The position numbers and the translations under genes were made by a program. The notes under the pieces were generated by a model. It saw only the letters and a list, made by a program, of their open reading frames with translations, ran no database searches and was not told the origin of the DNA. From Anaerolineae bacterium (GTDB lineage Bacteria > Chloroflexota > Anaerolineae > Epilineales > Epilineaceae), in assembly GCA_029262755.1 (NCBI GenBank), contig JAJCYU010000251.1:1-33415 (forward strand): a stretch of DNA of 33,415 nucleotides, read 5' to 3'. Each line of letters starts with the position of its first letter. Position 1 is the first letter of the stretch. Shown in pieces: positions 5,118-28,765 of the stretch.

Positions 5118-5428
5118 GGGGATCCCGACCTGACTAGCGAGACAAGGCAGAGGTCGCGGATCGAACGCGCTAGCGTGAACTCTGGCTGTGTGTTTCCGGG
5201 CATGTCAACCGCGGATTTTGGAAAGCTGCCGGCCGGTCTCCAAGGTGGAAGGCAGCGGCGCCCCGTTCGCCGCGGTCAGCTGCGACCGGTCGATCCCCTT
5301 TTCCTGCGCAGCGAGTCTATGGATGTAGGGCTGCGCAGGGAGCAGTGCTGTGCCGCCCCGCGGCGCGACGTCTGTGTCCGAATCGAATGCAGCAAGCACG
5401 ATGTCCACGACCAAGCGAGCGACAATTC

Positions 5429-7660
5429 ATGAGGCACCGCTGCATAGACGAGTCACCACGCCGCCGATCCAAGATCGGCATTCAACGTCGCCTGCCCCCG
5501 TGCCGGTTGTCCGGTCTCGTGGCGTTTCTCGTGGCTGGAATGGGCGCCTTCGCGGCCCTCTCGCCCCATCCGACAACCGCGCGGGCGGCCGGCGATGGCC
5601 TCGTACTCGAATTCGAGCACGGAGGCGCCCTGAGCGCGTTGGCCACCGACGGATCGTGGGCCTACCTCGTCCAGGGCAGTCGCGTCCACGTGGTCTCGCC
5701 GTCAAACCCGGGGGGCTCGCCGCTTGCAAGCAGCAAGCCGGACTCCCTGTCCAGAGTGAAGGCGGCTGTCGCGCGCGACGGAACGGTCGCGTTAGGCGGT
5801 GACGGGTTGCGCATCTTCCATCACCGGGGGACCGATCTTCGCATCACTGATCAATGGCTGCCGCGGCACGGCATCGAGGCGCTGGCCTGGGCTGGTGACA
5901 GGCTGTGGGTGCTCGGCGACGACGGTCAGGCCCACCGGTTGCGCATCGACGAGGAGGGCACGATCGTGCGCCGTGACCGCTGGGCGCCGACCGCGCCGAC
6001 GTTGGAAACGACAGCGCAGATCTCGGCGCTCGCCCCGTCGCCGAACGGCGAGCTGTTGTTCGCACTTGTGCAGTGGGTCGGTGAAACACAACCCTTCCGC
6101 GACCCACCGGTTCGCTCGGCGGAGATTCTCCAGATCGAGGTCACCTCGGGCACGAACCGGGTGATCGCACGCGCGCCCGCCCAGCGATGGCCTCGGCCGG
6201 GTCTGCTCGCCGGGGACACGTGGGCCATGCTCTATGCGCGCTCCGGCTTCGGCGCGACGCCACAAGCGCAGCTGTTTACGAAAGGACCCGCGACGGGACT
6301 CTCCAGCCAGCTCTTGAGATGGGCGGGGGAGTACGGCACCCAGTCGCTGGCCATGATGGACGACGTGCTATGGCGATTGGACCAGAGCGGACAGCTCTAT
6401 CGACACGCGCGTCTAAGCGCTGTTCAATCACAACCCGTTCCGACGCCCTCCTTTACGGGGGTCTCCGTGTTGGGCATCGGTGCGCGATTGGCCCTACTAA
6501 GCCCGGAGCAGATGTGGTGGCTCGAGGACGATGGTTCGGCCGCGCCCGACGTAGCCCTGGACACCCGCGAGATTGCCGAGGTGGCCGCGACGAAGCATGG
6601 CGCGTGGCTGCGTCGCGGAACCCGCGCGATGGACTTTGTACCCGCTACCGGCCCCGACGGCTGGCTCCTCCCCCCGCCGCACACCGGGCCGACGTACGTC
6701 TATCAACTCTTTGGGGCCGGCGAACGCGTTTATTCTCTTGCCAACGGCGTCGTAGAGATCTATGCCGACCGCAGCCGGGACCGTGGCCGGCTCGAACGCT
6801 TGGCCGGGCTCCCTCAAGCCGGCGACCACCGAACGAGCCTGCTGATGGACGCCGAAGGGGACCGGGTCGTCACCAAGGACTCGTCGGGCACGATCTGGCT
6901 GCAGCGCTCGACGGTCGATGGCCGCCCCGCGCAAGAGCTCTACATGCTGACAAGCGGCGACGTCATCGACGAGCACCTGGACGGCGACCTGCTGTGGCTC
7001 GCAATCACGTCGCGACGTACAACCCGGCTCGAAGGATTCGACATCGCAGGCGTGGGCATTACCGCACCCCGGCAAACGAGCCTTAGCCTGCCCGGCTCCA
7101 CAGCCATCAGCTTCGCCGTCGAGCGCGGGATCGCGCTCGTGGGCCGTGGGCCCATCCTCTCCGCGCTACGCGTCTCCGATCCGAGCCGGCCCAAGGAAGT
7201 CGATGTGCTCGACCTCCCGGGATCGATCGTTCACGTTACCGTGCAGGGACTGATTGCGTGGGTCTACTCCACGGGCTCCGCGTCGGACTATCTGAGCGCC
7301 ATCCAGATCGGCCATGGTGGATCCTTGCACGATCTCGGCACCGTTACGTTGCCGCTCGGAGCGACCGAGATCGCCCTCGCGGCCGACGCCGGCGGCGTGT
7401 GGCTCGTCGCAGATCGGGCGCTCCAACGCTACACCTTCGCAACGCCGCTCGATTCTTCCCCGACCGCCGACCCACGCCCGAGCTCGACGGCGCCGGCGTC
7501 GGCGACACCGACTTCGACCGCGACCGCGCCGGAGGCGACCGCGACGACGGCGCTCCCGACGGCAACGCGCACGCCCACAATGCACCGAGAATTGCGCGTG
7601 TTGCTGCCGTGGCTGGCCCGAGGTGGGGCGTCCGCGCTCGTTCGCTTCGGGACACCATAG
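5429..7660 (+). CDS. Predicted secreted beta-propeller-like protein with T/P-rich linker and C-terminal LPWLARG tail
   Basis: Signal-like segment LSGLVAFLVAGMGAFAALSPHPTTARAA. Repeated propeller-like segments (ALATDGSWAYLVQGSRVHVVSP, ALAWAGDRLWVLGDDGQAHRL). Linker PSSTAPASATPTSTATAPEATATTALPTATRTPT, end RVLLPWLARGGASALVRFGTP. Confidence 0.7.
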   Translation: MRHRCIDESPRRRSKIGIQRRLPPCRLSGLVAFLVAGMGAFAALSPHPTTARAAGDGLVLEFEHGGALSALATDGSWAYLVQGSRVHVVSPSNPGGSPLASSKPDSLSRVKAAVARDGTVALGGDGLRIFHHRGTDLRITDQWLPRHGIEALAWAGDRLWVLGDDGQAHRLRIDEEGTIVRRDRWAPTAPTLETTAQISALAPSPNGELLFALVQWVGETQPFRDPPVRSAEILQIEVTSGTNRVIARAPAQRWPRPGLLAGDTWAMLYARSGFGATPQAQLFTKGPATGLSSQLLRWAGEYGTQSLAMMDDVLWRLDQSGQLYRHARLSAVQSQPVPTPSFTGVSVLGIGARLALLSPEQMWWLEDDGSAAPDVALDTREIAEVAATKHGAWLRRGTRAMDFVPATGPDGWLLPPPHTGPTYVYQLFGAGERVYSLANGVVEIYADRSRDRGRLERLAGLPQAGDHRTSLLMDAEGDRVVTKDSSGTIWLQRSTVDGRPAQELYMLTSGDVIDEHLDGDLLWLAITSRRTTRLEGFDIAGVGITAPRQTSLSLPGSTAISFAVERGIALVGRGPILSALRVSDPSRPKEVDVLDLPGSIVHVTVQGLIAWVYSTGSASDYLSAIQIGHGGSLHDLGTVTLPLGATEIALAADAGGVWLVADRALQRYTFATPLDSSPTADPRPSSTAPASATPTSTATAPEATATTALPTATRTPTMHRELRVLLPWLARGGASALVRFGTP

Positions 7661-7984: not shown

Positions 7985-10702
7985 CTACGCTTTCAACTGC
8001 GCCTGCAACCACGCGACGATTGCCAAAGCGTCCGTGCGCAAGGCCCCGTTCTCGGTGACGCCAGTCCTTGATTGCACGCGACACCACGCGTCGCCCGGAC
8101 GCAGGGTTCGCCCCGACTGCGGCGCGAGCACGAGCCACGGTGCTGTGGCCGGCGGCGAGGGTTCGTCGAGCCTAAAACCGGCCTGTTCGCAGGCGTAGGC
8201 GCCATGACCGTCCACCACGGGCCCGTACCAGCCCGATGCCAGCCGCGGAGTGCGCGCACGCCCAGACCCGACGTGGTGAAGCACCAACTGCGCTCCTACA
8301 AGCGGCATTTCGTGGGCGTCGAGTGACGCGCCATCCGCGTCCGGATCGCGCAGGGAGACGACGTGCCGGGCGAGCATCGGCAACCGTCCGGCAAACAGTT
8401 CCAATTGGGTGTAGGCCGAGACGGATGCGACGAGCCGCGGGTTCACCTCGATCACCCAGTAGGCTCCATCTACGTCCCGTAGCAAATCGACGCCGAAGAA
8501 CCCCCGGTAGCCTTCCGCGCCAAGTCCGGTCCCAATGCGCCGCGCAAGCTCGATTCCAGGCGCCGTGTCGAGTGCTTGCTGCCGGGTGGCGCTCCAATCT
8601 TGACCGCACGAACCGAGGGATTGCAGCGTGAGCGCGGGATGCCCCGTGATTTGTAGGAACGGAGCGCCGACGACGACCCCCCGCGCGGTCACGCACGCGT
8701 TGACCGTCCACGTCTCGCCTTCCAGGCGACGGCTGACGCGCGCGGTCCGGCCGCGCAGGGCATCGCGTGCGGACACGAATAGCGGCTCGTCGTCCACCGG
8801 AAAGGTCTTCAGCCCCGCGTAGCCGCTGGGTCCCTGTACAACCAGACGAGGCCCGAGGAGCGAGCTCAACTGCGCATACGAGCTTGTCGCCAGCTCCACG
8901 GCCGCAGAGGGTGGCAGCGGAAGGCCGAGCTCCGCGCCAATCTCGAGAAAGGCAAGCTTGTTCTCCCACCGGCGAGCGAGCTTCGCCGGCGAAGCAATCA
9001 GGGGCCAGCCCATGTCCCGGCAGCGCCGCTCGATGGCATGCGAACTCTTGAAGACCAGGATTGCTGGCGCAGGAGCCTCGGCCAAGAACGCTTCGGTGGC
9101 GGGGGCCTGTAAGACATCCAGCGCGTTACGGCCTGCCGGGCGACGTGTTGCGGGCGGTGAGTTGGACCCCGACGAGGTAGACGGCGATGGGGGAGACGGC
9201 GTCGAAGCATTTGGAGGGTGCGTGCCGTCGCGCGCGGCAGGGCTCGCCGCGGCGGTGGCATTGGGTGCAGCAAGAGGCGCGGCCTCCGGGTCCGCGCTGG
9301 GCGGCGGATCGGCCTCCAGCGCGAGCACCGCGTGTCCCGCCGATCGCAGCAACCGGCCCGCCGGTGTGTCATCCAAGACCGCGAAACGCATGCTCGGCAG
9401 CAACGACTCCAAACCGATCCCATAGTGCGTGTCGGGTCCGACGAAGCTAAGACCGGCAACCTGCCGCGATGCCCACGCGGAGAAGGAAGCAACGTTCCGC
9501 ACAACACCGGCATCCGAAGGCTCCGCGCCGGGCTCATTACGTTCGTCGCCACTCCCGAAGGAGGGCACGGATGAGTCTTGAGAGGCTTGCGGCCACGCGT
9601 CCATCGCCTGCAGGGCAGCGTCCACGTCCTCGACGAAACGTTCGCTCAGTTCGGCCATGCCCTGTACTTGGTCAATAGCGCGAGCGTGATCGTGCGACTC
9701 GTCTTGCGAATCGCCTGCGCGGCGCGGCACATCGACACGTCGGGCGCCGGTGATCACGACCGCGACGTTGCGCAGCCCACGTTCGCGCGCGGCCCGGCCG
9801 GCTGCGGCAAGTGCGGCCGCGCCTTCGAGCGACGAATCGATGCCGGCGTCCAAGAGCAGACGTCCGGCGGCTTCGGCTTCCGCGTCGGTGATGACCCAGC
9901 CCGATCCACCCGTGGAACGCAAGAAGCGCTTCGCTTCCCCGACCCTGCGCGTCTTGCGTGCGCCGAGCTGCCCGACGCGGCTCTGTCGTTGGGCCGGTTC
10001 GAGCACCCGCTTATCGAACTCGCCGGCGACCGGCTGGGCCCCTGCGCCCTGCACGGCGTGGAGCTGCGGTATCGCGAACGTCGGGGCGTGTTCGGGTCTG
10101 TTCGCTGCCGACCGAACCATGGCGGCGAATTCCGGGCGTTGCCAGGCGCGGCCGATGGCCACCAAGGAGGTTGCGCTCGAGACGAACGTGAAGACCGCCT
10201 CGACGGGCGGCTCGATGGCGAGAAGCTCCCAGCCGAGCGTCTGAAACCCTTCCGGCGCCGCTGGATCCGTGGACGGTCGCAGGTTGTGTAAACCCCGTGC
10301 AGCCGCGACATCGCGGGCGAGCGTCAGCGCGCGCTCGGAAACTAGCAACAAGGCGCCTTCCGCCGTGATGCGCGCTCGTTTCGCCGGCGAGGTCCGGGGC
10401 GATACGAACGCCGCCACCGGGATGCCGGCGGCCCGCCCGTAGCGCGCCGTGGCGATCGCGGCGTTACCGGAGGACGAAATGACAAGCCACCGCGGCGGCG
10501 GATCGGCACTGGCCAACAGCGAAACCTGATAGGCCGCGCCACGGTCCTTGTGCGATCCCGTCGGGTTGCGGTCTTCCCGCTTGAGCACGAGCCGCGCGAG
10601 GCCGAGTTGCGCCGCAATCGCGGGCACATCCTCCGCCGGTGTATCTCCCTCTCCGAGGCTGAGACGGCGGCCGGGTGGCGGCGCATGCGCAAACCCCTGC
10701 AC
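7985..10702 (-). CDS. Fusion: N-terminal threonine-synthase-like fold-type II PLP enzyme + C-terminal ATP-grasp ligase; GTG start
   Basis: PLP part: LSLGEGDTPAEDVP, KREDRNPTGSHKDRGAAYQ (catalytic Lys), SSSGNAAIATARYG, VITDAEAEAAGRLLLDAGIDSSLEGAAALAAAG. ATP-grasp part: RWENKLAFLEIGAELGLPLPPS...LVVQGPSGYAGLKTF...GAEGYRGFFGVDLLRDVDGAYWVIEVNPRLVASVSAYTQLE. Confidence 0.85.
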   Translation of the reverse strand: MQGFAHAPPPGRRLSLGEGDTPAEDVPAIAAQLGLARLVLKREDRNPTGSHKDRGAAYQVSLLASADPPPRWLVISSSGNAAIATARYGRAAGIPVAAFVSPRTSPAKRARITAEGALLLVSERALTLARDVAAARGLHNLRPSTDPAAPEGFQTLGWELLAIEPPVEAVFTFVSSATSLVAIGRAWQRPEFAAMVRSAANRPEHAPTFAIPQLHAVQGAGAQPVAGEFDKRVLEPAQRQSRVGQLGARKTRRVGEAKRFLRSTGGSGWVITDAEAEAAGRLLLDAGIDSSLEGAAALAAAGRAARERGLRNVAVVITGARRVDVPRRAGDSQDESHDHARAIDQVQGMAELSERFVEDVDAALQAMDAWPQASQDSSVPSFGSGDERNEPGAEPSDAGVVRNVASFSAWASRQVAGLSFVGPDTHYGIGLESLLPSMRFAVLDDTPAGRLLRSAGHAVLALEADPPPSADPEAAPLAAPNATAAASPAARDGTHPPNASTPSPPSPSTSSGSNSPPATRRPAGRNALDVLQAPATEAFLAEAPAPAILVFKSSHAIERRCRDMGWPLIASPAKLARRWENKLAFLEIGAELGLPLPPSAAVELATSSYAQLSSLLGPRLVVQGPSGYAGLKTFPVDDEPLFVSARDALRGRTARVSRRLEGETWTVNACVTARGVVVGAPFLQITGHPALTLQSLGSCGQDWSATRQQALDTAPGIELARRIGTGLGAEGYRGFFGVDLLRDVDGAYWVIEVNPRLVASVSAYTQLELFAGRLPMLARHVVSLRDPDADGASLDAHEMPLVGAQLVLHHVGSGRARTPRLASGWYGPVVDGHGAYACEQAGFRLDEPSPPATAPWLVLAPQSGRTLRPGDAWCRVQSRTGVTENGALRTDALAIVAWLQAQLKA

Positions 10703-10740: not shown

Positions 10741-11187
10741 CTACTTCTCCTCCTCCTCGAAGAGGTCGAGCAATAGCGGCTCGCGTTGGATGACCTCAAG
10801 CTCCGCACCGCAGTGGGCGCAGTACAGCACCTCACCCAGCTCGACGTCGCCGGCAACCGGCACGCCTTCCCCGCAGGCGGGACACGGTTGGTCCGCCCCG
10901 GTGGGCACAGCGGGCACCTCGGTTCCAGAAGAAACGGGCGGTGCTTCGAACGAAGCGGCAGTAGCCGTCGAATCGGCTGTTCCGGATCCATCCCCCGTCG
11001 CGATGGACGTAGTCGGGTGGCTGGAAGAGGTCGGAGTGTCGGCTGGAGAGTGACCGGTTTTCGAGGGTGTCTCGTGCGTCACGGGATCCTCCGTGTTTCG
11101 GGTGGCGGCGGGACCGGCCGGATTGGGTTTGGTGCGGGGTCGCTGATGACCCTTGCGGAAGAACAGGCGGATCCAAGTGGGGATCAT
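10741..11187 (-). CDS. LysW/AmCP-like zinc-ribbon carrier protein with ~95-aa low-complexity N-terminal extension and EEEEK C-terminus
   Basis: C-terminal domain CPACGEGVPVAGDVELGEVLYCAHCGAELEVIQREPLLLDLFEEEEK follows the LysW pattern CPxCG..ELGE..C..CGAELEV...PL.L...E. ATG at 11187 preceded by GGAGG (ggaggattgagATG), 1 nt after the Mur ligase TGA. Confidence 0.8.
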   Translation of the reverse strand: MIPTWIRLFFRKGHQRPRTKPNPAGPAATRNTEDPVTHETPSKTGHSPADTPTSSSHPTTSIATGDGSGTADSTATAASFEAPPVSSGTEVPAVPTGADQPCPACGEGVPVAGDVELGEVLYCAHCGAELEVIQREPLLLDLFEEEEK

Positions 11188-11188
11188 C

Positions 11189-12871
11189 TCAATCCTCCGC
11201 GTCATGGGCGACGGCGCTTGAGGCGGTAGCTTCGCGCAACAGAGCTCGAAAGCCGCGCTCGCCACCACCGTCTACGTAGAAACGTCGAAAGAAGTACGGG
11301 CATGCCGGCGATAGCAACACGATCTGTCCCGGACGCGCCTTGTCGACAACACTGCGAATCGCCGGCGGCAGATCCTCGAATCGATCGATGGCCGGGGCAA
11401 CGACACGATCATGATTGCTGCCCGACTTCGCGATCAACGCCTCCACCGCCGCTGCTATACGCGCACCGCCTGCCCCAGGCAACACGACCAATCGTACGAC
11501 ACGTTTGTGGATCTCCGCCGCGAGGTCGGCCAGCGCGAGCCCCTTGTCGTCTCCGCCTACGATCAGCACGATCCGGTCGCCCAGAGCGCGCAGCGCGGCG
11601 ATGGTGGCCTGGGGGGTCGTCGCGTTCAGGTCGTCGTAGTAGGCCACATCGTCGGCGCCCCACACGAACTGGATGCGATGGCGCAGACCCCGATAGGCGC
11701 GCAGTCCTGCATCAATCGCGCGCAGATCCGCGCCCGCGAGGCGCGACGCGAGCGCCGCGGCGAGCACGTTGCTCTCGTTATGATCGCCCGGTAAGCGGGG
11801 CAAGGCCGGAAGGGTCAGCCGTTCTACGGGCCCGACCGGACTGGCGCGCAGATGGAGCACGCCGTCCACGAGCCACGCCGCGCAATGCGCCTGCCGGCCC
11901 GTGTCATCGCCGTGCCCGTCGATCGTTTCGCGCGCCGCTATCCCTATCGCGCCATCGTCTTCCCCGTCAACGGTGCTCATCCCGTGTCCTTCGTCCGAAG
12001 CGCCGACCTCACCGGGCGTGCCGGAACCGGTCCGGCGCGGCGCCGCGCGAGCGAACAACAGCGCGTGCCCGGGCGCATGGTTCGCGAACCCGGCGGTGAC
12101 GGCATCGTCCGCGTTCAGCACCGCGAAGCCGGAGGCCGGCTGGGCGTCCAGGAGACGGCGCTTCACGGCGGCATAGGCATCGAAGGAGTCGGCGTGCTCG
12201 TCCAAGTGGTTGGGCAGCACGTTGGTCACGACCGCGACGTCCGCACCCTGTCCGGGGGCCAGTTGAAGTCCGCGCAGATGGCGGTTGCTGACCTCGAGAA
12301 CAAGCCAGTCCGTGGCGGACATCTGGTCCATTCGGTCCAAAACCTGCACGCTGCGTCGCTCGTTGCCTGCGTACCAAACGCGCAGCTTCGCCTGCAGCAA
12401 CATGGACTCGACGAGCCGACTCGTCGTGGACTTACCGTTGCTGCCGGTCACCGCAAGGATCCGCGCCGGCGCCAAGCCGAAGTAGAGGTCCATGATGCCG
12501 CGAAGGGGAAGTCCGGCATCGATCAGGGGGGCCAACGCCGCCACGTTACGCGGATACAGGTACCAGGCCTGTCCGGCGAAGATCACCTCCGCGTCCTCGA
12601 TCCCCTCCAAGTAGGCATTGCCCAAACGGCGGGTGAGCGGCAGGCTGGACAACTCCGTCCATAGGCTCGCTCGCTGCGCCTTCGGCAGTCCCACGTGGGA
12701 GCGCGAAAACGCACGTCGGAGCGGTTCGCCTTCTTCGACATCGTGAACCGTGATATCGCGGGCGCCGCGCTCCCATAGGAATCGGGTCACGGCCGTGCCC
12801 TCGCTGCCAGCGAGCCCAACCACGTGGATGCGGCGGCCAAGCAGGTCGCCCAGGGTGTCGGCGTTGATCAC
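11189..12871 (-). CDS. MurD-like Mur ligase; GTG start
   Basis: Mur ligase motifs TGSNGKSTTSRLVE, VVTNVLPNHLDEHADSFDAYAAVKRRLL, LNATTPQATIAALRAL, LIVGGDDKGLALADLA, VLLSPACPYFF...GERGFRALL. GTGA overlap with the upstream NlpC/P60 gene. Confidence 0.88.
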   Translation of the reverse strand: MINADTLGDLLGRRIHVVGLAGSEGTAVTRFLWERGARDITVHDVEEGEPLRRAFSRSHVGLPKAQRASLWTELSSLPLTRRLGNAYLEGIEDAEVIFAGQAWYLYPRNVAALAPLIDAGLPLRGIMDLYFGLAPARILAVTGSNGKSTTSRLVESMLLQAKLRVWYAGNERRSVQVLDRMDQMSATDWLVLEVSNRHLRGLQLAPGQGADVAVVTNVLPNHLDEHADSFDAYAAVKRRLLDAQPASGFAVLNADDAVTAGFANHAPGHALLFARAAPRRTGSGTPGEVGASDEGHGMSTVDGEDDGAIGIAARETIDGHGDDTGRQAHCAAWLVDGVLHLRASPVGPVERLTLPALPRLPGDHNESNVLAAALASRLAGADLRAIDAGLRAYRGLRHRIQFVWGADDVAYYDDLNATTPQATIAALRALGDRIVLIVGGDDKGLALADLAAEIHKRVVRLVVLPGAGGARIAAAVEALIAKSGSNHDRVVAPAIDRFEDLPPAIRSVVDKARPGQIVLLSPACPYFFRRFYVDGGGERGFRALLREATASSAVAHDAED

Positions 12872-13950
12872 GAGCTGGTGTGGCCGCTCGGATTGCCATT
12901 CACGCGACCGAGCCCCGGCTCCCCTCCCGATGAGACCGGAGCCGCGTCGGTGTCACGCGGCAAGGGCCGCAGACCCTCCGGAAAGCGACGGGCGGCGCGC
13001 AGGCCGTAGCGGGCAAGAAAGTCGTCCATGGGCTCGACGACGACGGCAGCATGGTCAAGTCCAGCGTGGGCCACCGAAAGGGTCCCACGTGGCGGCTCGT
13101 CCTGCGGTGCGTGGCCCTCGGAGAGGCCGACAAGAGCCGCTCCGACCCACGGCGCCGGGGGCAGCACGAGCGCGGTATGCGAGACGCCGCGCTCGAGATG
13201 GTGCAGCAGGAGCAAATCGCCCATGGCCCAGGACTCGCGCGGCACCCGGGCGCCGAAGCGCGTCTGATCGCTCGAATGGCGCGGGAGCCCAATGCCCTGG
13301 GCTGCGCGGAATACCTTCTGCGTCAGCGCGGAACAATCGATGCCGCTGCGCAGGCGGCCCCCGAGACGATACGGGGAGCCAAGCCAAGGGGCGAGCGCAA
13401 CCAACCAATCCGTCGCGTCCGCGGGGCGGGCGCTTCCCGCCCATCCGTCTCGCCATTCGGCTACGCTGGGCGGACGATCCGCGCTTGGATCGAGATCGGT
13501 CACGCTGGCGGCTTCACACCACCCGACGGTCCGATCCGCGAGCTCGACCGCGAGCCAGCCCGCCGAGGGCCAGAGCCGCCGAATGGGCGGCTCATCGGCC
13601 GACCACTGGGTGGCCAGGTCCCCGTTGGGCGTTGCGTGCACGTCCACGTGCGTTGCACGCGGCGCAATCCAGACGGCGTCGTCGAGTTCGGTCAGCGCGC
13701 GCACACGGACACGCGCCGCATCCGGCTCGTAGCCGCCGACGCGCAGACCGCTCGCCAACGACCGTTCCAGGGCCGCACGCTGAGACGGCACGAGCACGTC
13801 GCCCACAACCCAGGCGCCGCCGTGTCCGTCTGATTGCACGTCGAGCTCCGCCACGACCACCCCGTGTTGCTCCCGCCAGCGGGCGAGCAGATCGCGCAGG
13901 GTGTCGCGCACGTGGGCAATGAGGGCCGCTTCGTGCACGGTGGGCTCCAT
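12868..13950 (-). CDS. NlpC/P60 family cysteine peptidase with SH3-like region and an unassigned N-terminal domain
   Basis: [46 protein letters not shown]...[21 protein letters not shown] is a classical NlpC/P60 catalytic region (Cys in GIDCSAL, His in VSHTALVL). SH3-like segment [22 protein letters not shown]. Confidence 0.85.
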
Positions 13951-17428: not shown

Positions 17429-20413
17429 ATGTTGTTCTCTGCCCCCTTGGCTCGCACCTTCGTGGTTGTCGGCGTCGTGGTGATCGCCCTGTCTGTATGG
17501 GGCGCTCCGTCCGCAGCGCAGCCTGCAGCGCCGTTTTCCTGGGTCTGGATCGAAGGGGAGGACGCGCAGCGGCATGATTTCAACGGCCACTCTTGGTACT
17601 GCTGTGACGGCGTCCGGGCCGACCTCCTATCACCCGGAATTCCGGAGCAACGGGACGGCGCCTGGCTGGCGCACTATGCGAACGACGGGCAGACCGCGAC
17701 GGCCTCGTGGGATGTGGACGTACCTACGAGCGCCTCGTACACCGTTTGGGCGCGCGTCTCAAGCTGGAACGTCGGCCTGTGGTGGCAGATGGACGGCCAG
17801 ACGCGGCGCGCACACGACGCCGCCGCGGACCCGCGCGAGTACCTGAACCTGCTCGAGCCGGGCCGAATCGACATCCGCTTTCTATCCTGGCAACGGCTGG
17901 GCGATACCGAGTTAGAGGGCGGCGCTCATCAACTAACCCTGGGGCTGGAAGGACATCCGAGCCGCAACGAGGGCCAAGAAGTGCATGGTGGCGTGGACGC
18001 CATCGTGCTGGTCGCCGCAGACGCGCTCTGGGCGCCTTCGGGCGCGATGCAGCCACCCACCGGCAACGAAGCAGCGCCGCAGCGCGATACTTGGTTCCCG
18101 CTCGTACCATCGGACGATCCGTTCTCGGATGCCTCCGTGACCGATGCCGGCGGATTGCTGCATGCGCCGGCCGGTCGACACGGAGCGCTTCGGCCAGACG
18201 GTCGCTCCTTCCGGTTTGAAGACGGCACGCCCGTGAAATTTTGGGGCGTCAACGCGCACCCGCCCGCCACGGAGGAGCTCGCCCAACGCCAGGCTCGTTG
18301 GTTGGTCAAGCAGGGTGTCAACCTCGTCCGCCTCCACCCGGTGCAATCGGTCGTCGGCCTGCTCGAACGCGACCCGGCTACCGGAAACCGGCGGCTGAAT
18401 CCCGAGCACCTCGACAAGCTCGATCGCTGGTTCGCGGTGCTCAAGGAACACGGCATCTACATGACGTGGTCGCCCGTGTATCCGCACATCATCACCGCCG
18501 ATGACGGCTATCCGGTCAACCTCTACAACGAGCTGCAGGATGCCAACACGTGGAATATGCCTCCGGGGACTAGCGGCAAGTCGAGCTCCGGAGTCGTGAA
18601 CGTAATGCGACCCCTTCAAGATGCCGAATGGGCGTGGCTAAAGCCGCTGCTCGAGCACGTCAACCCCTACACGGAGCTGCGCTACGTCGACGATCCGGCG
18701 TTGGCACTCCTAGAGACCCACAACGAGGACTCGATCTTCTGGCATTGGCCGCTCAACAGCTTGCAGGGCGGCGAGTTGCCGGGCCACCTGGCCGCGCTGC
18801 AGGGCATGTGGGCCACGTGGCTCCAAGATCGCTACGCAAGCGACGCCGCGCTGCTGGCCGCTTGGGGACCACCCGGCAGTGGCAGCCGACCGGGCGACGG
18901 CTTGGGCAACGATACGATGGCGATCTACGGCGCCTGGGAGTTCGAAGCAGACGGCCCGCCGCAACATCCGATGGAACAGGCTCGTTTGGGCGATTGGATC
19001 CGCTTCCTTGCCGAGACGCAGGCAGGCTACTTCGCGCGACGCGAAGCGGAGGTACGTGCGCTCGGCTACCGCGGCGTCACTGTGACCACCGCCTGGATGT
19101 CCGGCGGACCCGCTGCTCACCTGGCCAACGTTTGGACCGACGACGTGGCCGAGGCGATCGATCGGCACAGCTACTTCGGAGGTGGCGAGGGCGGGCACAG
19201 CGTGCGGCCGGGCACGGTCAACAACGGTTCACACCTCGGCGCACCGGGCAGCGGCATCTTGCAACGCGGCCTCGAGCAGGTGGAGGACAAGCCCTTCCTG
19301 CTCTCGGAATGGACGCAGTCGCCGCCCAACCAATGGAAGGCGGAGATCGCTCCTTTGTTCGCGTTCTACGGCATGGGTTTGCACGGCTGGGATGCGTCGA
19401 TGCACTTCTCCGCCGATCAAGACGGACGTATGGGCGGTGGATGGCCCGACGAGAATAGCTACGTCTCCGAAACTCCCCACTACGCGGGCCAGTTTCCGGT
19501 TCTCGCGCGCAGCGTCCACCGCGGCGACTTCGACGAAGGGCCGCTCGCTGCCGCACGGCGCTTGGCCGTCGACGACATTTTCCGCGGCGTGGACGCGTTG
19601 ACCCGGGACACGCCATCGGGCGGCTGGGCCGGCGATGCTCCCGGAGGAGCCCTGGCGACGCCGAGAGAGGTCTTCGCGATCGGCCGCACCACGCTCGATA
19701 TCGGCGACGACCTTCCGCGCAGCGAGCGCTTGGACTGGTCGAGCTATTGGGACGAGTCCGCGCGAAGCATCCGCAGCGCAACCGATCAGCTGGAGTGGGA
19801 CTACGGACGCCGCGTGGTCCAGGCGCGTAGCCCGCGCACCCAGGGCGTCATCGGCTGGGCAGGCGCCGACGGTGGGGAAACGTGGTCGCTGCCGGCGCTC
19901 GAGGTCACGGTCCGGACACCCTTCGTGAGCCTGTTGCTGACGAGCCTCGATGATCGCGTGCTTGTAGAGAGCGGACATATCCTGGTCACGGCCCTCGCGC
20001 GCGACCAGCAGACAGGGGCCCGCTACAGCGCGGACGGCTCCCGGCTCGAGGCTCTGGGCGGCCCGCCGCTGCTACTGGAGCCCGTGCAAGCGGATCTCCG
20101 CTTCACCGGTCCGTCCATCACCTCAGCCCATCGCCTTGACATCCACGGTGTGCCCATAGGCGAACCGATTGAACATGACGCGGACTCCGTGACCCTCGAC
20201 GGCCGGTGGGCGAGCTATCAATACGAGATCCGTCGTGACGTGGCGCCGACGGAATCGACGCCGTCCGCATCCCCGGTCCCGAGCCCCATCCCTTCACGCG
20301 AGCCGACCCGTGGTCCGGCGCCCACGGCTTTAGCGACGCAACCGCCCACGGGCGACATGCCTCCGCTGGCTCTGCCTTGGCTTGCTCGAGGCTCGGGGGC
20401 GGCGCTGCGCTAA
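17429..20413 (+). CDS. Secreted glycoside-hydrolase-like (clan A/GH5-like, TIM-barrel) protein with N-terminal CBM-like module and C-terminal LPWLARG tail
   Basis: Signal peptide-like MLFSAPLARTFVVVGVVVIALSVWGAPSAAQPA. FRFEDGTPVKFWGVNAHPPATEELAQRQARWLVKQGVNLVRLHPV...HLDKLDRWFAVLKEHGIYMTWSPVYP...LLETHNEDSIFWHW...PFLLSEWTQSPPNQW. C-terminus PPLALPWLARGSGAALR. Confidence 0.75.
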   Translation: MLFSAPLARTFVVVGVVVIALSVWGAPSAAQPAAPFSWVWIEGEDAQRHDFNGHSWYCCDGVRADLLSPGIPEQRDGAWLAHYANDGQTATASWDVDVPTSASYTVWARVSSWNVGLWWQMDGQTRRAHDAAADPREYLNLLEPGRIDIRFLSWQRLGDTELEGGAHQLTLGLEGHPSRNEGQEVHGGVDAIVLVAADALWAPSGAMQPPTGNEAAPQRDTWFPLVPSDDPFSDASVTDAGGLLHAPAGRHGALRPDGRSFRFEDGTPVKFWGVNAHPPATEELAQRQARWLVKQGVNLVRLHPVQSVVGLLERDPATGNRRLNPEHLDKLDRWFAVLKEHGIYMTWSPVYPHIITADDGYPVNLYNELQDANTWNMPPGTSGKSSSGVVNVMRPLQDAEWAWLKPLLEHVNPYTELRYVDDPALALLETHNEDSIFWHWPLNSLQGGELPGHLAALQGMWATWLQDRYASDAALLAAWGPPGSGSRPGDGLGNDTMAIYGAWEFEADGPPQHPMEQARLGDWIRFLAETQAGYFARREAEVRALGYRGVTVTTAWMSGGPAAHLANVWTDDVAEAIDRHSYFGGGEGGHSVRPGTVNNGSHLGAPGSGILQRGLEQVEDKPFLLSEWTQSPPNQWKAEIAPLFAFYGMGLHGWDASMHFSADQDGRMGGGWPDENSYVSETPHYAGQFPVLARSVHRGDFDEGPLAAARRLAVDDIFRGVDALTRDTPSGGWAGDAPGGALATPREVFAIGRTTLDIGDDLPRSERLDWSSYWDESARSIRSATDQLEWDYGRRVVQARSPRTQGVIGWAGADGGETWSLPALEVTVRTPFVSLLLTSLDDRVLVESGHILVTALARDQQTGARYSADGSRLEALGGPPLLLEPVQADLRFTGPSITSAHRLDIHGVPIGEPIEHDADSVTLDGRWASYQYEIRRDVAPTESTPSASPVPSPIPSREPTRGPAPTALATQPPTGDMPPLALPWLARGSGAALR

Positions 20414-24226: not shown

Positions 24227-25462
24227 TCACGTACCGGCGTCCGCGAGTGCGTCTCCATAGAGCGGACCGGAGCGTGGTCCCCGCTCTACGAGCGCACGTA
24301 GCGCGTCGTCGTATCGCGGCGCCATCATCGCCCAATCGTAGCTTGCGACCGCGTCGCGCAGGGCGACCCGCGTCGGGTCGAGCGACCAGTCCAGACGCGT
24401 GTCCGGCGCGGATAGGAGGGAGGCGAGTCGTTCGTGCAACGACGATTCGTCGCGCACAAGACAGGCTTCGAGCAACGCGTCGGGCAAGATCTCCGGATAG
24501 CTCAAGCGCCAGGGAGCGACGGGCATGCAGCCACAATAGATGGCCTCGCAGAGGGCAGCGCCGAAAAACTCGTGCCGCGCGGTCGAAACAACGACATCGC
24601 CGCGCCATAGCCAGCGCGCATAATCGCCCCGGCTCTGTGCGTAGCCCCATTGGACAATGCGCGGACCGAGAGCCTCCCGCGCTGCGGCGAAGACGGCGGG
24701 CTCCCGAACGAATTGTTCGCCAAGGATGATCAGCTCGAAGTCGAGATCGCGGGCCGCCAGCGCATGCATTGCGCGAAAGAAGACCTCGGGACCCTTGTCG
24801 TGTTCCCATCTATGGTTCCAGACGATGCGGACGGGGCCGGGGGGACGGGCCTTTGGTCGTGCAGCGTCCAGCACGCGCAGGTCTATGCCCAAGGGTAGGA
24901 CGCTGCTACGGGCGGCGACCGCGTCGGGCGCACCAGGCTCGCGGAAGTCCGGGAATTGCCCCAGGAATCCAGGCAGCGCAGTGAGAAAGCTGTCGCGGTT
25001 GAAGGCGGAGTTCCACCAGACGGCATCCGCGGCGAGACAGGAGCTCAGGTTGGTGAACCCGTAGTGTTCGTCGACGCGCTTGGCTCGGCGCCGGCGGGAA
25101 TCGCTCCAGGCGTCCTCGGCGGGCGGTTCCGGATACGCCAGCTGGTTCTCATGCATGTAGAGCGCGGCAGGGACGTCGGCCAGCCTGGAGCGCGAGAGCG
25201 CGAGGAAGGCGGCGAGATCCAGCATATCGCCGGCAAGCACAACGTCCGGACGGGGACCCTCATCGGAAAGCTGGCGTCGCGCCAAGGTGAGAGCGCCGCC
25301 GTGCATGCGCCACTTCCAAAAGCGGCCGGGCATCGTTGCCCGTTGGATCTCGTGACCGCTGTGGGCGGCGAATCCGTGCAACCACGCAGCGTGTGAGCCC
25401 GTTTCGTAGGGCTCCACGACAAGGACGCGAAGCGTCCTAGGCACGGCGGCAGAGGTAGGCAA
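24227..25462 (-). CDS. DUF3524/GTDC1-like glycosyltransferase, homolog of tRNA-queuosine alpha-mannosyltransferase; TTG start
   Basis: LRVLVVEPYETGSHAAWLHGFAAHSGHEIQRATMPGRFWKWRMHGGALTLA...LYMHENQLAYP...HYGFTNLSSCLAADAVWWNSAFNRDSFLTALPGFL...VRIVWNHRWEHDKGPEVFFRAM follows the GTDC1 pattern (GSH, HENQL, NS.FN..SFL). Confidence 0.8.
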   Translation of the reverse strand: MPTSAAVPRTLRVLVVEPYETGSHAAWLHGFAAHSGHEIQRATMPGRFWKWRMHGGALTLARRQLSDEGPRPDVVLAGDMLDLAAFLALSRSRLADVPAALYMHENQLAYPEPPAEDAWSDSRRRRAKRVDEHYGFTNLSSCLAADAVWWNSAFNRDSFLTALPGFLGQFPDFREPGAPDAVAARSSVLPLGIDLRVLDAARPKARPPGPVRIVWNHRWEHDKGPEVFFRAMHALAARDLDFELIILGEQFVREPAVFAAAREALGPRIVQWGYAQSRGDYARWLWRGDVVVSTARHEFFGAALCEAIYCGCMPVAPWRLSYPEILPDALLEACLVRDESSLHERLASLLSAPDTRLDWSLDPTRVALRDAVASYDWAMMAPRYDDALRALVERGPRSGPLYGDALADAGT

Positions 25463-26845
25463 TCACGGACCCGAGCGCGTTGGGGTCGCCGCAACCGGCG
25501 GAGAAACCGCGGGCGCCCGACCGGGCGTCGGCGTCGGCTCGCTGTTCGGCGTCGGTGTGGGCGTCGGCAGGCGCGTTCCGACGAGCAGCACCTCCACCTG
25601 CTCCGGCGTGATGCTCTCGACGGTCAGACCCTGATCCTCCGGAACCCGCACCAACACGACGAGCCGGTAGGTGCCGGCCGTACGCTCCTCGATGTCTACC
25701 CGCGCCGATAGGTCCGTTGCGCTCAGCTGTTCCAGAACGGGCTGGGAGCCCGTGACCGCGACAAGCACGCGCTGCGGCGAGATCGTCGCGGTGAGACCGG
25801 GTGGTAGTCGTTCGACCACGACATCGAGCGCAAACTCGCTTCGCCCCGGCAAGGCCTCCACGAGCACGGTGACGGTGATCTCGCCCGTCGGCAGACCGTC
25901 GACGCGCAATCCCTCCGGCAAGTCGAGCGGGACGCGGACCTGGCGGGTGGTAGTCATGCCCGTGATATCGAAGATTTGGGCGTTGACAACGCCTTCCGCC
26001 ACGAGGCTCGCCATGCGCTCCCTTGGACCGTATACGGTAACCTCGCGGGGCTCAATCTCGCGCCCGCGAAGCCAGTAGCCGTCGGGGACGCGACCGGTTG
26101 GTGGCGGGACGAGCACGGGTAGGCGCAAGCCCGTCGGGCTGAAGCGCGCGGAGACATCGACGAACGCGGGGAAGGGTGTGAGCGCCGGAACGGGCGTTCC
26201 CGCGGCGTCCAGGGCGGACACCGCAACGTCCGTGTAGCGGCGTGTCACGCCGACGGCCCCCTCGACATCCGGCACGAGTGCGGCCACGCGCTCTACGCGG
26301 GCAAGACTTCGCGCGGGTCCTTGGAGCATGACCGCGTCCGGCGAGACCCGCTCACGTTCCAAGACCATGCCCTGTCCTGCTTGGCCGGCGACCCCGACGC
26401 TCACGCGCAGCGTCTCGGTGACCACCCGGTCGAAGCGTACGAGCACCTGGGGCGGGTCGATGCGCACGATTCGAGCTCCTATCCGGCGGCGCGACGCCCA
26501 CGTACTCGATGGGCTCCATCGCCATTCCACGGGCCGCATCACCGGGCCCGTTGCGGGGTCCACGGACGCGCAATCGGTATAGAGCGTCACATCGTCCGCG
26601 GACATATCCACGAGCCGATCGCCAAGACCCCGCACCGTGAGCACGACCGGCTCCGACGCTCCGATGTAGGCGTCCCATTCGTCCGGAACACCCTCGCAGG
26701 CGATGGCAGCCGCACCACCGCCCGGCAGGAGGTTGATGTCGCTCATCGCGCGTTCGGTATCGTTGCGCACGTACCAAAACAGGAACGCCAGCAGCACCGC
26801 GAGACCGGCTGTGCTCATCCGATCGAATCGACGCGCTTCGTTCAT
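25463..26845 (-). CDS. cdaR: YbbR-like domain protein (CdaR-type regulator of diadenylate cyclase)
   Basis: N-terminal single TM MSTAGLAVLLAFLFWYVRNDTERAMSD followed by repeated YbbR-like segments (VTVYGPRERMASLVAEGVVNAQIFDITGMTTTRQVRVPLDLPEGL). ATGA overlap with upstream cdaA. P/T-rich C-terminal tail. Confidence 0.85.
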   Translation of the reverse strand: MNEARRFDRMSTAGLAVLLAFLFWYVRNDTERAMSDINLLPGGGAAAIACEGVPDEWDAYIGASEPVVLTVRGLGDRLVDMSADDVTLYTDCASVDPATGPVMRPVEWRWSPSSTWASRRRIGARIVRIDPPQVLVRFDRVVTETLRVSVGVAGQAGQGMVLERERVSPDAVMLQGPARSLARVERVAALVPDVEGAVGVTRRYTDVAVSALDAAGTPVPALTPFPAFVDVSARFSPTGLRLPVLVPPPTGRVPDGYWLRGREIEPREVTVYGPRERMASLVAEGVVNAQIFDITGMTTTRQVRVPLDLPEGLRVDGLPTGEITVTVLVEALPGRSEFALDVVVERLPPGLTATISPQRVLVAVTGSQPVLEQLSATDLSARVDIEERTAGTYRLVVLVRVPEDQGLTVESITPEQVEVLLVGTRLPTPTPTPNSEPTPTPGRAPAVSPPVAATPTRSGP

Positions 26846-27786
26846 GCGCCACCCGCCTCTGCGTCGTCACCGGCGGAGCGACCTTCGGGCTTCGCTGCCG
26901 GCTTCTCTGCGGCGGCGCCGGACGGTTCTTCGACAGGCTGCAATACCGATCCGACGATCTCTGCGACCGCAACGCGAAGCCGATCCAAGGCTCGCTCACG
27001 GGAAGGAGGCGCGACCAAGTAGCCGGTGAGCAAGCTGGCCAACGCGCTTGCATCGAGATGTCGCGATAGCCGACCATCTCTGGCAAGCGATAGGATGCCG
27101 GTCTCCTCGCTGACGACCACCGCCAACGCGTCCGATGTCGCGGAGATCGAGACGGCAGCCAGGTGGCGTGTACCCAGACCGGGATCGCTGACGGGCACGT
27201 CCGCGAGCGGTATGACGGTTCGTGCCGCCGCGAGCCGATCCCCGCGCACAACGACCGCGCCATCATGCAGGGGGCTGTGCGGGAAGAATACCTGCAGTAG
27301 GAGGTCGCTGGTCAGCATCGCGTCCATGCGGACGCCACGCTCCACAAGGTCGTCCAAACCCGTCTCGCGCTCGAGGACGATGAGGGCTCCGTGCCGCAAC
27401 TCCGAAAGCTTCTCCGCGGCCAATCCAATCGCAGCAACAACGGATTCCGCGGTCGTCGGATCCATCGTCGGGCGCAGGATCACGCCGGCGCGACCCAGGC
27501 GCTCCAAGGCACGCCGAAGCTCCGGCTGAAAGACAACGGGAATCGCGAACAGGACACCGGGCAACAACGCCTTCAAGATCCATTGCGACGCGAGGAGGTT
27601 GGCTTGAGAAAGGAGGAGGTACGCGACCGGCGCCAGCAGGAGCACGCCACGCAGCAACTGGACGGCTCGGGTGCCGCGCACGACGTAGAGCAGGGTGTAG
27701 ATCAGCCCAGCGACCAGGGCAATATCCAGCACGTCCCACGGGGAGAGCGCGGAAAGGCGGAGGGCGAGATCGGCGATCCACTGCAT
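26842..27786 (-). CDS. cdaA: Membrane diadenylate cyclase, CdaA type
   Basis: TM region WDVLDIALVAGLIYTLLYVVRGTRAVQLLRGVLLL; IPVVFQPELRRALERLGR; DAC motifs PLHDGAVVVRGDRLAAARTVIPL and GLGTRHLAAVSISATSDALAVVVSEETG. Confidence 0.92.
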   Translation of the reverse strand: MQWIADLALRLSALSPWDVLDIALVAGLIYTLLYVVRGTRAVQLLRGVLLLAPVAYLLLSQANLLASQWILKALLPGVLFAIPVVFQPELRRALERLGRAGVILRPTMDPTTAESVVAAIGLAAEKLSELRHGALIVLERETGLDDLVERGVRMDAMLTSDLLLQVFFPHSPLHDGAVVVRGDRLAAARTVIPLADVPVSDPGLGTRHLAAVSISATSDALAVVVSEETGILSLARDGRLSRHLDASALASLLTGYLVAPPSRERALDRLRVAVAEIVGSVLQPVEEPSGAAAEKPAAKPEGRSAGDDAEAGGA

Positions 27787-27832
27787 CAGCCGCGTTCCAC
27801 GTTGGGCGAATGCTGCACGCGATCCGCCCCGA

Positions 27833-28765
27833 TCACGCGGGGAGCGGCATTCCGCCCGCGAGCCACGCGAGCAGGGCCATCTGGGCATGCATGCGGTTCT
27901 CGGCCTGATCGAAGACCCTGCTTCGCAGGCCGTCGATCACCGCGTCGGTGATCTCGTCTCCCCGATGCGCAGGCAGGCAGTGAAGGACGATCGCGTCGGC
28001 GCCGGCGCGCGCGACGAGGGCCTCATCGACGCGGTAGGGCGCAAAGCGCGCCTTGCGTGCTGCCGCTTCGTCTTCCTGCCCCATGCTGGCCCACACATCG
28101 GTATAGACCACGTCCACGCCGTCCACGCCGTCGAGCGACGTCGTTGCGTGCACGCTGCCTCCCGAGGCCGAGGCGAAGCCTTCCGCCGTGTGCATCACGG
28201 CAGCGGACGGCGCGTGGTTCTCTGGATGCACGATCGTGACATGCATGCCGGCCAACGCCCCCCCGTGCAGCAGGGAGTGCGCCACGTTGTTTCCGTCACC
28301 GACATAGGCCAAACGACGTCCGGTGAGATCGCCGTACGCGTCTCGGATAGTGAGAAGATCAGCGAGGCCCTGGCACGGATGATTGTGATCCGACAGTCCG
28401 TTGATGACCGGAACGCTCGCAAAGCGCGCCAGCTCCTCGATATCCGCATGGGCGAACACGCGCGCCATGATGACGTCTGCGTAGCGCGAAAGAACCCGCG
28501 CGATGTCCGCGGCGCTCTCGCGACTGCCGAGCCCGATTTCTGCCGGAGACAGGTAGAGCGCGTCACCGCCGAGCCGGCGCATTCCGACCTCGAATGAGAC
28601 ACGCGTCCGCAAGCTCGGCTTGGCGAACAACATAGCGAGGGTGCGACCAGCAAGCGGTTGGGGCCGGTCGCTTGCGGTTCCGGACGAGCGCAGTCCGGCC
28701 GCCAAATCGAGCAGGCCGCGCAACTGGTCAGGCGATAGGTCCGCCAGGCTGAGAAAGTCCTTCAA
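27833..28765 (-). CDS. argF: Ornithine carbamoyltransferase; TTG start
   Basis: KPSLRTRVSFEVGMRRLGGDALYL, NGLSDHNHPCQGLADLLTI, VYTDVWASMGQE, VLHCLPAHRGDEIT, RMHAQMALLAWL. Confidence 0.95.
   Translation of the reverse strand: MKDFLSLADLSPDQLRGLLDLAAGLRSSGTASDRPQPLAGRTLAMLFAKPSLRTRVSFEVGMRRLGGDALYLSPAEIGLGSRESAADIARVLSRYADVIMARVFAHADIEELARFASVPVINGLSDHNHPCQGLADLLTIRDAYGDLTGRRLAYVGDGNNVAHSLLHGGALAGMHVTIVHPENHAPSAAVMHTAEGFASASGGSVHATTSLDGVDGVDVVYTDVWASMGQEDEAAARKARFAPYRVDEALVARAGADAIVLHCLPAHRGDEITDAVIDGLRSRVFDQAENRMHAQMALLAWLAGGMPLPA

Follow-up and report, generated by a model that had tools for sequence, protein, structure and literature searches.

A candidate carrier-protein module for peptidoglycan D-glutamate in Chloroflexota without MurI and canonical MurD

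A five-gene module was found in the 33,415-nucleotide stretch of DNA analyzed here (the window), where an NlpC/P60 peptidase, a MurD-like ligase, a LysW-like carrier, a PLP enzyme and an ATP-grasp ligase are encoded in this order on one strand. We propose, with a probability of roughly 0.4, that the five proteins replace MurI and canonical MurD and place D-Glu at stem position 2 via a carrier-bound intermediate. Nearly all bacterial cell walls have D-Glu at position 2, and its known sources are, to our knowledge, few (MurI, D-amino-acid transaminase and MurD2/MurL) and include drug targets. There is a real chance that the module, which would be carrier-protein biosynthesis in a new form, is a third route to peptidoglycan D-Glu; if so, it would explain how some Chloroflexota build walls although they lack MurI and canonical MurD. 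The carrier-bound route would be, as far as we know, the first use of a protein carrier in the synthesis of peptidoglycan precursors. The range of LysW-type carriers, which some natural-product pathways also use, would grow beyond lysine, arginine and those few natural products, and NlpC/P60 peptidases would gain a biosynthetic role. No description of the five-gene module was found in the open-licence papers searched. Its features in the window are given below, where G002 is JADYYS010000030.1, an Ardenticatenales MAG and the nearest relative, and f98 is a second Chloroflexota family.

12868..13950 (-): NlpC/P60 peptidase without a signal peptide, predicted to cut a gamma-D-Glu bond and release the product (Pfam PF00877, E 1.5e-14)
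11189..12871 (-): MurD-like Mur ligase, the sole MurD candidate in the genome (TIGR01087, 201 bits; residue map; tree)
10741..11268 (-): LysW-like zinc-ribbon carrier ending in LFEEEEK, start provisional, conserved domain at 10741-10911 (Pfam PF21344, E 5.9e-12)
7985..10702 (-): PLP enzyme/ATP-grasp fusion ORF of 905 aa (separate genes in relatives)
9590..10702 (-): PALP domain, a fold-type II PLP enzyme resembling threonine synthase and serine racemase, predicted epimerase of carrier-bound Glu (Pfam, AlphaFold, Foldseek)
10547..10549 (-): Lys52 of GSHKDRG, the predicted PLP Schiff-base lysine (invariant in 12 homologues)
10154..10195 (-): VFTFVSSATSLVAI, the glycine-poor phosphate loop (VSSAAS in G002; S-G-A-T in f98)
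9497..9589 (-): joint between the two enzymes, an unconserved linker at residues ~372-402 (in its place G002 has an ATGA stop/start overlap)
7985..9502 (-): ATP-grasp ligase part, predicted gamma-glutamyl ligase on the carrier (NF005096; profile and fold matches)
9098..9295 (-): Pro/Ser/Thr/Ala-rich insert within the ATP-grasp part, residues ~470-535 (G002 alignment; pLDDT <50)

The five genes were observed together in Ardenticatenales (G000 and G002) and in f98. There, the carrier gene lies in reverse orientation between those for the MurD-like ligase and the PLP enzyme, and a few contigs end before the full five-gene set is visible. The inverted f98 carrier gene is convergent to the MurD-like gene with a 3' overlap of ~35 bases (e.g., L040 4170-5832), and the two genes are co-directional in Ardenticatenales. 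When a profile of the module MurD was applied to 400 Chloroflexota genomes, module MurD was found in 14 genomes from two families, with scores of 690-855 bits versus at most 300 bits for canonical MurD. A contig scan, for which the patterns had been built from two close sequences, matched G002 alone. Plasmid searches returned distant ATP-grasp relatives and one weak match to the MurD-like ligase, and gave no match to the LysW-like carrier.

The presence of the module was compared with that of known D-Glu and MurD genes. MurI is found in none of the 14 module genomes, whereas 260 of the 386 other Chloroflexota carry it (Fisher P = 2.7e-7, a value that is too strong, since the 14 genomes come from just two lineages). 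MurI is also absent from G001, a relative with an ATP-grasp gene fragment at a contig end, and is present in two sister-family genomes. No D-amino-acid transaminase scored above the cut-off in the module genomes, and D-Glu supply by such an enzyme was rejected, since the candidates were just class-IV aminotransferases of ~100-150 bits that also occur in MurI-bearing genomes. A second MurD elsewhere was found in none of the 14 module genomes, the next candidates reaching at most ~101 bits; sister families of the same order carry canonical MurD at 313-340 bits. Furthermore, all three dcw clusters read in module genomes (G002, G403 and G424) have the order mraY-ftsW-murG with murD gone, and the order mraY-murD-ftsW was observed in four non-module genomes. 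As the remaining peptidoglycan genes (MurC, MurB, MurE, MurF, Alr, Ddl and MraY) were found in module genomes, a wall is probably made. Judged from this distribution of genes, the module probably replaces MurI and MurD.

Two further observations concern the same genes. About 126 sampled Chloroflexota genomes, roughly a third of those without the module, have no MurI match either, which counts against the model; some of them may lack peptidoglycan and others may hold another D-Glu route. In G002, MurC and MurB are fused in a single frame (L086 7695-10199), as are MurF and alanine racemase (L087 1-2547).

The MurD-like ligase has the Mur ligase core, the P-loop, Thr321 and Lys348 in common with canonical MurD, but it is encoded outside the dcw cluster, has lost Ser415, and carries a Q-(A/G)-W loop where canonical MurD has the UDP-binding SPG loop. 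In the tree, module MurDs group in a single clade, separate from canonical MurD. Scored with TIGR01087 (cut-off 211.95 bits), the window protein reaches 201 bits, that of G002 213 bits and the other module MurDs 178-204 bits. In MurD, Lys348 and Thr321 bind the first carboxyl of the substrate and Ser415 and Phe422 the second (PMC3527612). Thr321 and Lys348 are kept in all eight module and all four canonical MurDs compared, and Ser415, kept in the four canonical enzymes, gives way to Tyr or Gly in the eight module enzymes. The loss of Ser415 with retention of Thr321 and Lys348 is what would be expected if the gamma-carboxyl were amidated, and it suggests a pocket that binds the Glu alpha-carboxylate but, lacking the gamma-carboxylate serine, allows an amidated gamma-carboxyl. 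With the SPG loop changed, a first substrate other than UDP-MurNAc-L-Ala may be used. Module MurDs also differ at Lys319 (Asn/Ser), Ala414 (Pro) and Leu416 (Phe/Val), positions at which changes are also found in, or favor, L-Glu-using enzymes (PMC8788868). MurD2 itself has Arg at the Lys348 position, required for L-Glu, and Glu at the Asp182 position (PMC8788868); this signature is absent from the eight module MurDs, which have Lys and Asn, respectively.

Among the module carriers, the four zinc-ribbon Cys are retained as two CxxC pairs, and the C-terminus reads F-x-(D/E)-E-E-K in 14 of 14. LysW-type carriers serve lysine and arginine, with attachment at the C-terminal Glu in both LysW and ArgW (PMC10433800). 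As in these pathways, the zinc-ribbon carrier of the module is small, has an acidic tail at its C-terminus (PF21344), and is accompanied by an ATP-grasp ligase and a hydrolase for release (PMC10433800). The module differs in that Lys takes the place of the final Glu of the carrier, the ATP-grasp enzyme is not LysX-like by sequence, and the MurD-like, PLP and NlpC/P60 partners are new. All 23 canonical Chloroflexota LysW sequences read end in EDWGE, and membership of the module carriers in LysW/ArgW proper was rejected on their Lys-ended C-terminus and the absence of EDWGE from every one of them. Because a C-terminal Lys offers an amine and not a carboxyl, the carrier would suit a substrate joined by its own carboxyl.

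NlpC/P60 peptidases cut gamma-D-Glu-diamino-acid bonds, and a gamma-D-Glu-Lys bond would thus be a natural release target for the module peptidase. Its Cys-His-His catalytic motifs are present, with DCS, SH and HA conserved in 11 homologues. No hydrophobic N-terminus was found in the module protein, a presumably cytosolic peptidase.

The ATP-grasp part was assigned by sequence and by fold. Over residues 531-781 it matches PRK06524/NF005096, an ATP-grasp family (E 2.5e-28), at 98.4 bits and so below the curated cut-off of 684 bits. A Pfam domain search, which an earlier note on this DNA had named as a check, found PALP in the 905-aa protein and ATP-grasp_3 in 12 of 12 isolated ATP-grasp domains, with ATP-grasp undetected in the full-length protein at E 0.001. 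The Glu-x-Asn metal motif is present (E352 and N354 of the domain, both invariant), and the AlphaFold model of this part matches structures of biotin carboxylase, PurK and L-amino-acid ligase. Profile matches include CarB (2.6e-9) and BesA, an L-propargylglycine--L-glutamate ligase (1.5e-7), and BesA is also among the fold matches (E 1.3e-11). BesA joins the gamma-carboxyl of Glu, and the resemblance may point to a carrier-bound gamma-glutamyl group, where the BesA function is taken from its PDB name and the sequence match lies mostly over the common ATP-binding motif. Distant relatives annotated as ‘biotin carboxylase’ (PRK06524) stand beside a C45-family peptidase gene in L084, a Rhizobium leguminosarum plasmid (7770-10247), and in L085 (7683-10160). 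One of these settings is near nifHDK and the other contains alanine racemase and D-amino acid dehydrogenase; the ligase/peptidase pair is uncharacterized.

The PLP domain gives a full-length PALP match at residues 15-319 (Pfam PF00291, E 7e-47, model positions 2-295 of 295) and is modeled with a pLDDT of ~90 across residues 10-320. Its best fold matches are threonine synthases (Foldseek E 7e-21), followed by serine dehydratases and serine racemases, but it fails the curated threonine synthase model (best 72.8 bits versus a cut-off of 303). The lysine of GSHKDRG, reported earlier as retained, is indeed present as Lys52 and is invariant in 12 homologues, as are the SSSGN loop and Gly319; the late Thr-Gly motif is invariant or nearly so. 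The earlier note had further described the usual glycine-rich phosphate loop as replaced by VFTFVSSATSLVAI. The sequence is present as described, but the loop appears glycine-poor rather than replaced: glycine is missing from it in two Ardenticatenales (SSATS in the window protein, SSAAS in G002), and ten relatives have S-G-A-T. Because of these ten relatives, the change is best read as drift inside one family and not as a new cofactor site. The altered cofactor use suggested from the loop was rejected, since the AlphaFold model, another check named at the time, shows an intact threonine-synthase/serine-racemase-like fold, Lys52, SSSGN and Thr-Gly are conserved, and the loop retains small polar residues.

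The fold, the PLP lysine and an SSGN-type loop, the last also known from serine dehydratases, are common to the module PLP domain, the serine/aspartate racemases and threonine synthase, at ~20-25% identity. The module domain is unlike these enzymes in its glycine-poor phosphate loop and in the location of its gene in a carrier module. The re-face base of serine racemase is Ser84, and the corresponding residue lies in the SSSGN loop (PMC6424897). By sequence and model, the domain is closer to threonine synthase than to a racemase, which counts against an epimerase, and it could catalyze replacement chemistry rather than epimerization.

We tentatively propose the following reactions for the module. 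The ATP-grasp domain would couple L-Glu, by its gamma-carboxyl, to the side-chain amine of the carrier's invariant C-terminal Lys, and the PLP domain would epimerize the carrier-bound L-glutamyl group to D. The gamma-linkage fits a PLP epimerase because the free alpha-amine, which such an enzyme needs, stays open. The MurD-like ligase would then use the free amine of D-Glu on the carrier as the acceptor for UDP-MurNAc-L-Ala, and the NlpC/P60 peptidase would cut the gamma-D-Glu-Lys bond to the carrier and free the product. We infer the attachment site and bond, the sequence of the steps, and that the PLP reaction is an epimerization. It is conceivable, if on balance doubtful, that Glu stays attached to the carrier Lys through its side chain during activation, inversion and ligation, such that free D-Glu never exists and the NlpC/P60 protein is a biosynthetic release enzyme.

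Alternatively, the module may supply stem position 2 by other chemistry, in which the MurD-like ligase uses free L-Glu, as MurD2 of Xanthomonas does, or an unusual PLP-made amino acid borne by the carrier; the position-2 residue may then not be D-Glu, or may be epimerized elsewhere. We regard this as unlikely. The genomic evidence for replacement of MurI and MurD applies to it equally, the PLP domain is nearest to threonine synthase, a replacement-chemistry enzyme, and the Pro and Phe flanking the Ser415 position and the change of Lys319 are common to MurD2; however, Lys348 is kept, whereas MurD2 needs Arg there for L-Glu (PMC8788868). The invariant C-terminal Lys and the peptidase are less well accounted for by such chemistry, and the ordinary MurE presumably needs a residue resembling Glu. 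It is slightly less likely again that the product of the module, built on a LysW-type carrier, is a separate small molecule or a modified amino acid with no part in the cell wall, unrecognized proteins doing the jobs of MurI and MurD. In its favor, lysine and arginine pathways use LysW-type carriers (PMC10433800), the MurD-like ligase has an altered UDP loop, and the plasmid ATP-grasp relatives adjoin C45 peptidases, not mur genes. Yet there is no other MurD candidate in the 14 module genomes, murD is absent from the three dcw clusters, and the module recurs family-wide and in two Ardenticatenales genera, as a core trait would.

The earlier note had instead read the frame as a fusion in which an altered PLP enzyme and a ligase channel an amino acid between two active sites, a reading that now appears highly improbable. 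It did not take in the MurD-like ligase and the NlpC/P60 peptidase of the same operon, or the loss of MurI and canonical MurD from module genomes. The single 905-aa frame that it described, with a fold-type II PLP domain and an ATP-grasp ligase in one protein, is real in the source assembly, as one open frame at 7985-10702 on the minus strand, and its placing of both enzymes in one system with a carrier protein is borne out by the LysW-like carrier gene in the same module. However, G002 encodes the two enzymes in separate genes that overlap by ATGA, ten f98 genomes have them in separate frames, and fusion as a family trait was rejected on these 11 genomes. The Pro/Ser/Thr stretch taken for the inter-enzyme linker lies inside the ATP-grasp part; the true joint, at residues ~372-402, is unconserved, and this, together with the separate genes and the intact PLP site, argues against fusion-based channelling. 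The fusion may be a quirk of the source MAG or its lineage, or may be a sequencing error, as a frame-joining error is possible where the linker is open but not conserved. The fusion per se is of little weight.

The proposed carrier-bound route was also compared with two known systems. The MurD2/MurL route of Xanthomonas, in which MurL is ATP-dependent and acts after MurD2, has no carrier protein, PLP enzyme or peptidase (PMC8788868). The CysO-CysM-Mec+ cysteine pathway of Mycobacterium is, by analogy, a precedent for teaming a PLP enzyme with carrier and peptidase: it pairs a small carrier protein with a fold-type II PLP enzyme, and the amino acid is set free by a peptidase, but the carrier has a ubiquitin fold and a thiocarboxylate, the chemistry is that of sulfur, the peptidase is of another kind, and there is no Mur ligase (PMC3227635). 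Elsewhere in the window, two long plus-strand frames (5345-7660, 771 aa; 17429-20413, 994 aa) gave no Pfam match even at E 0.1. At 24227-27888 on the minus strand, a queuosine-tRNA mannosyltransferase-like gene adjoins YbbR and a CdaA-type diadenylate cyclase.
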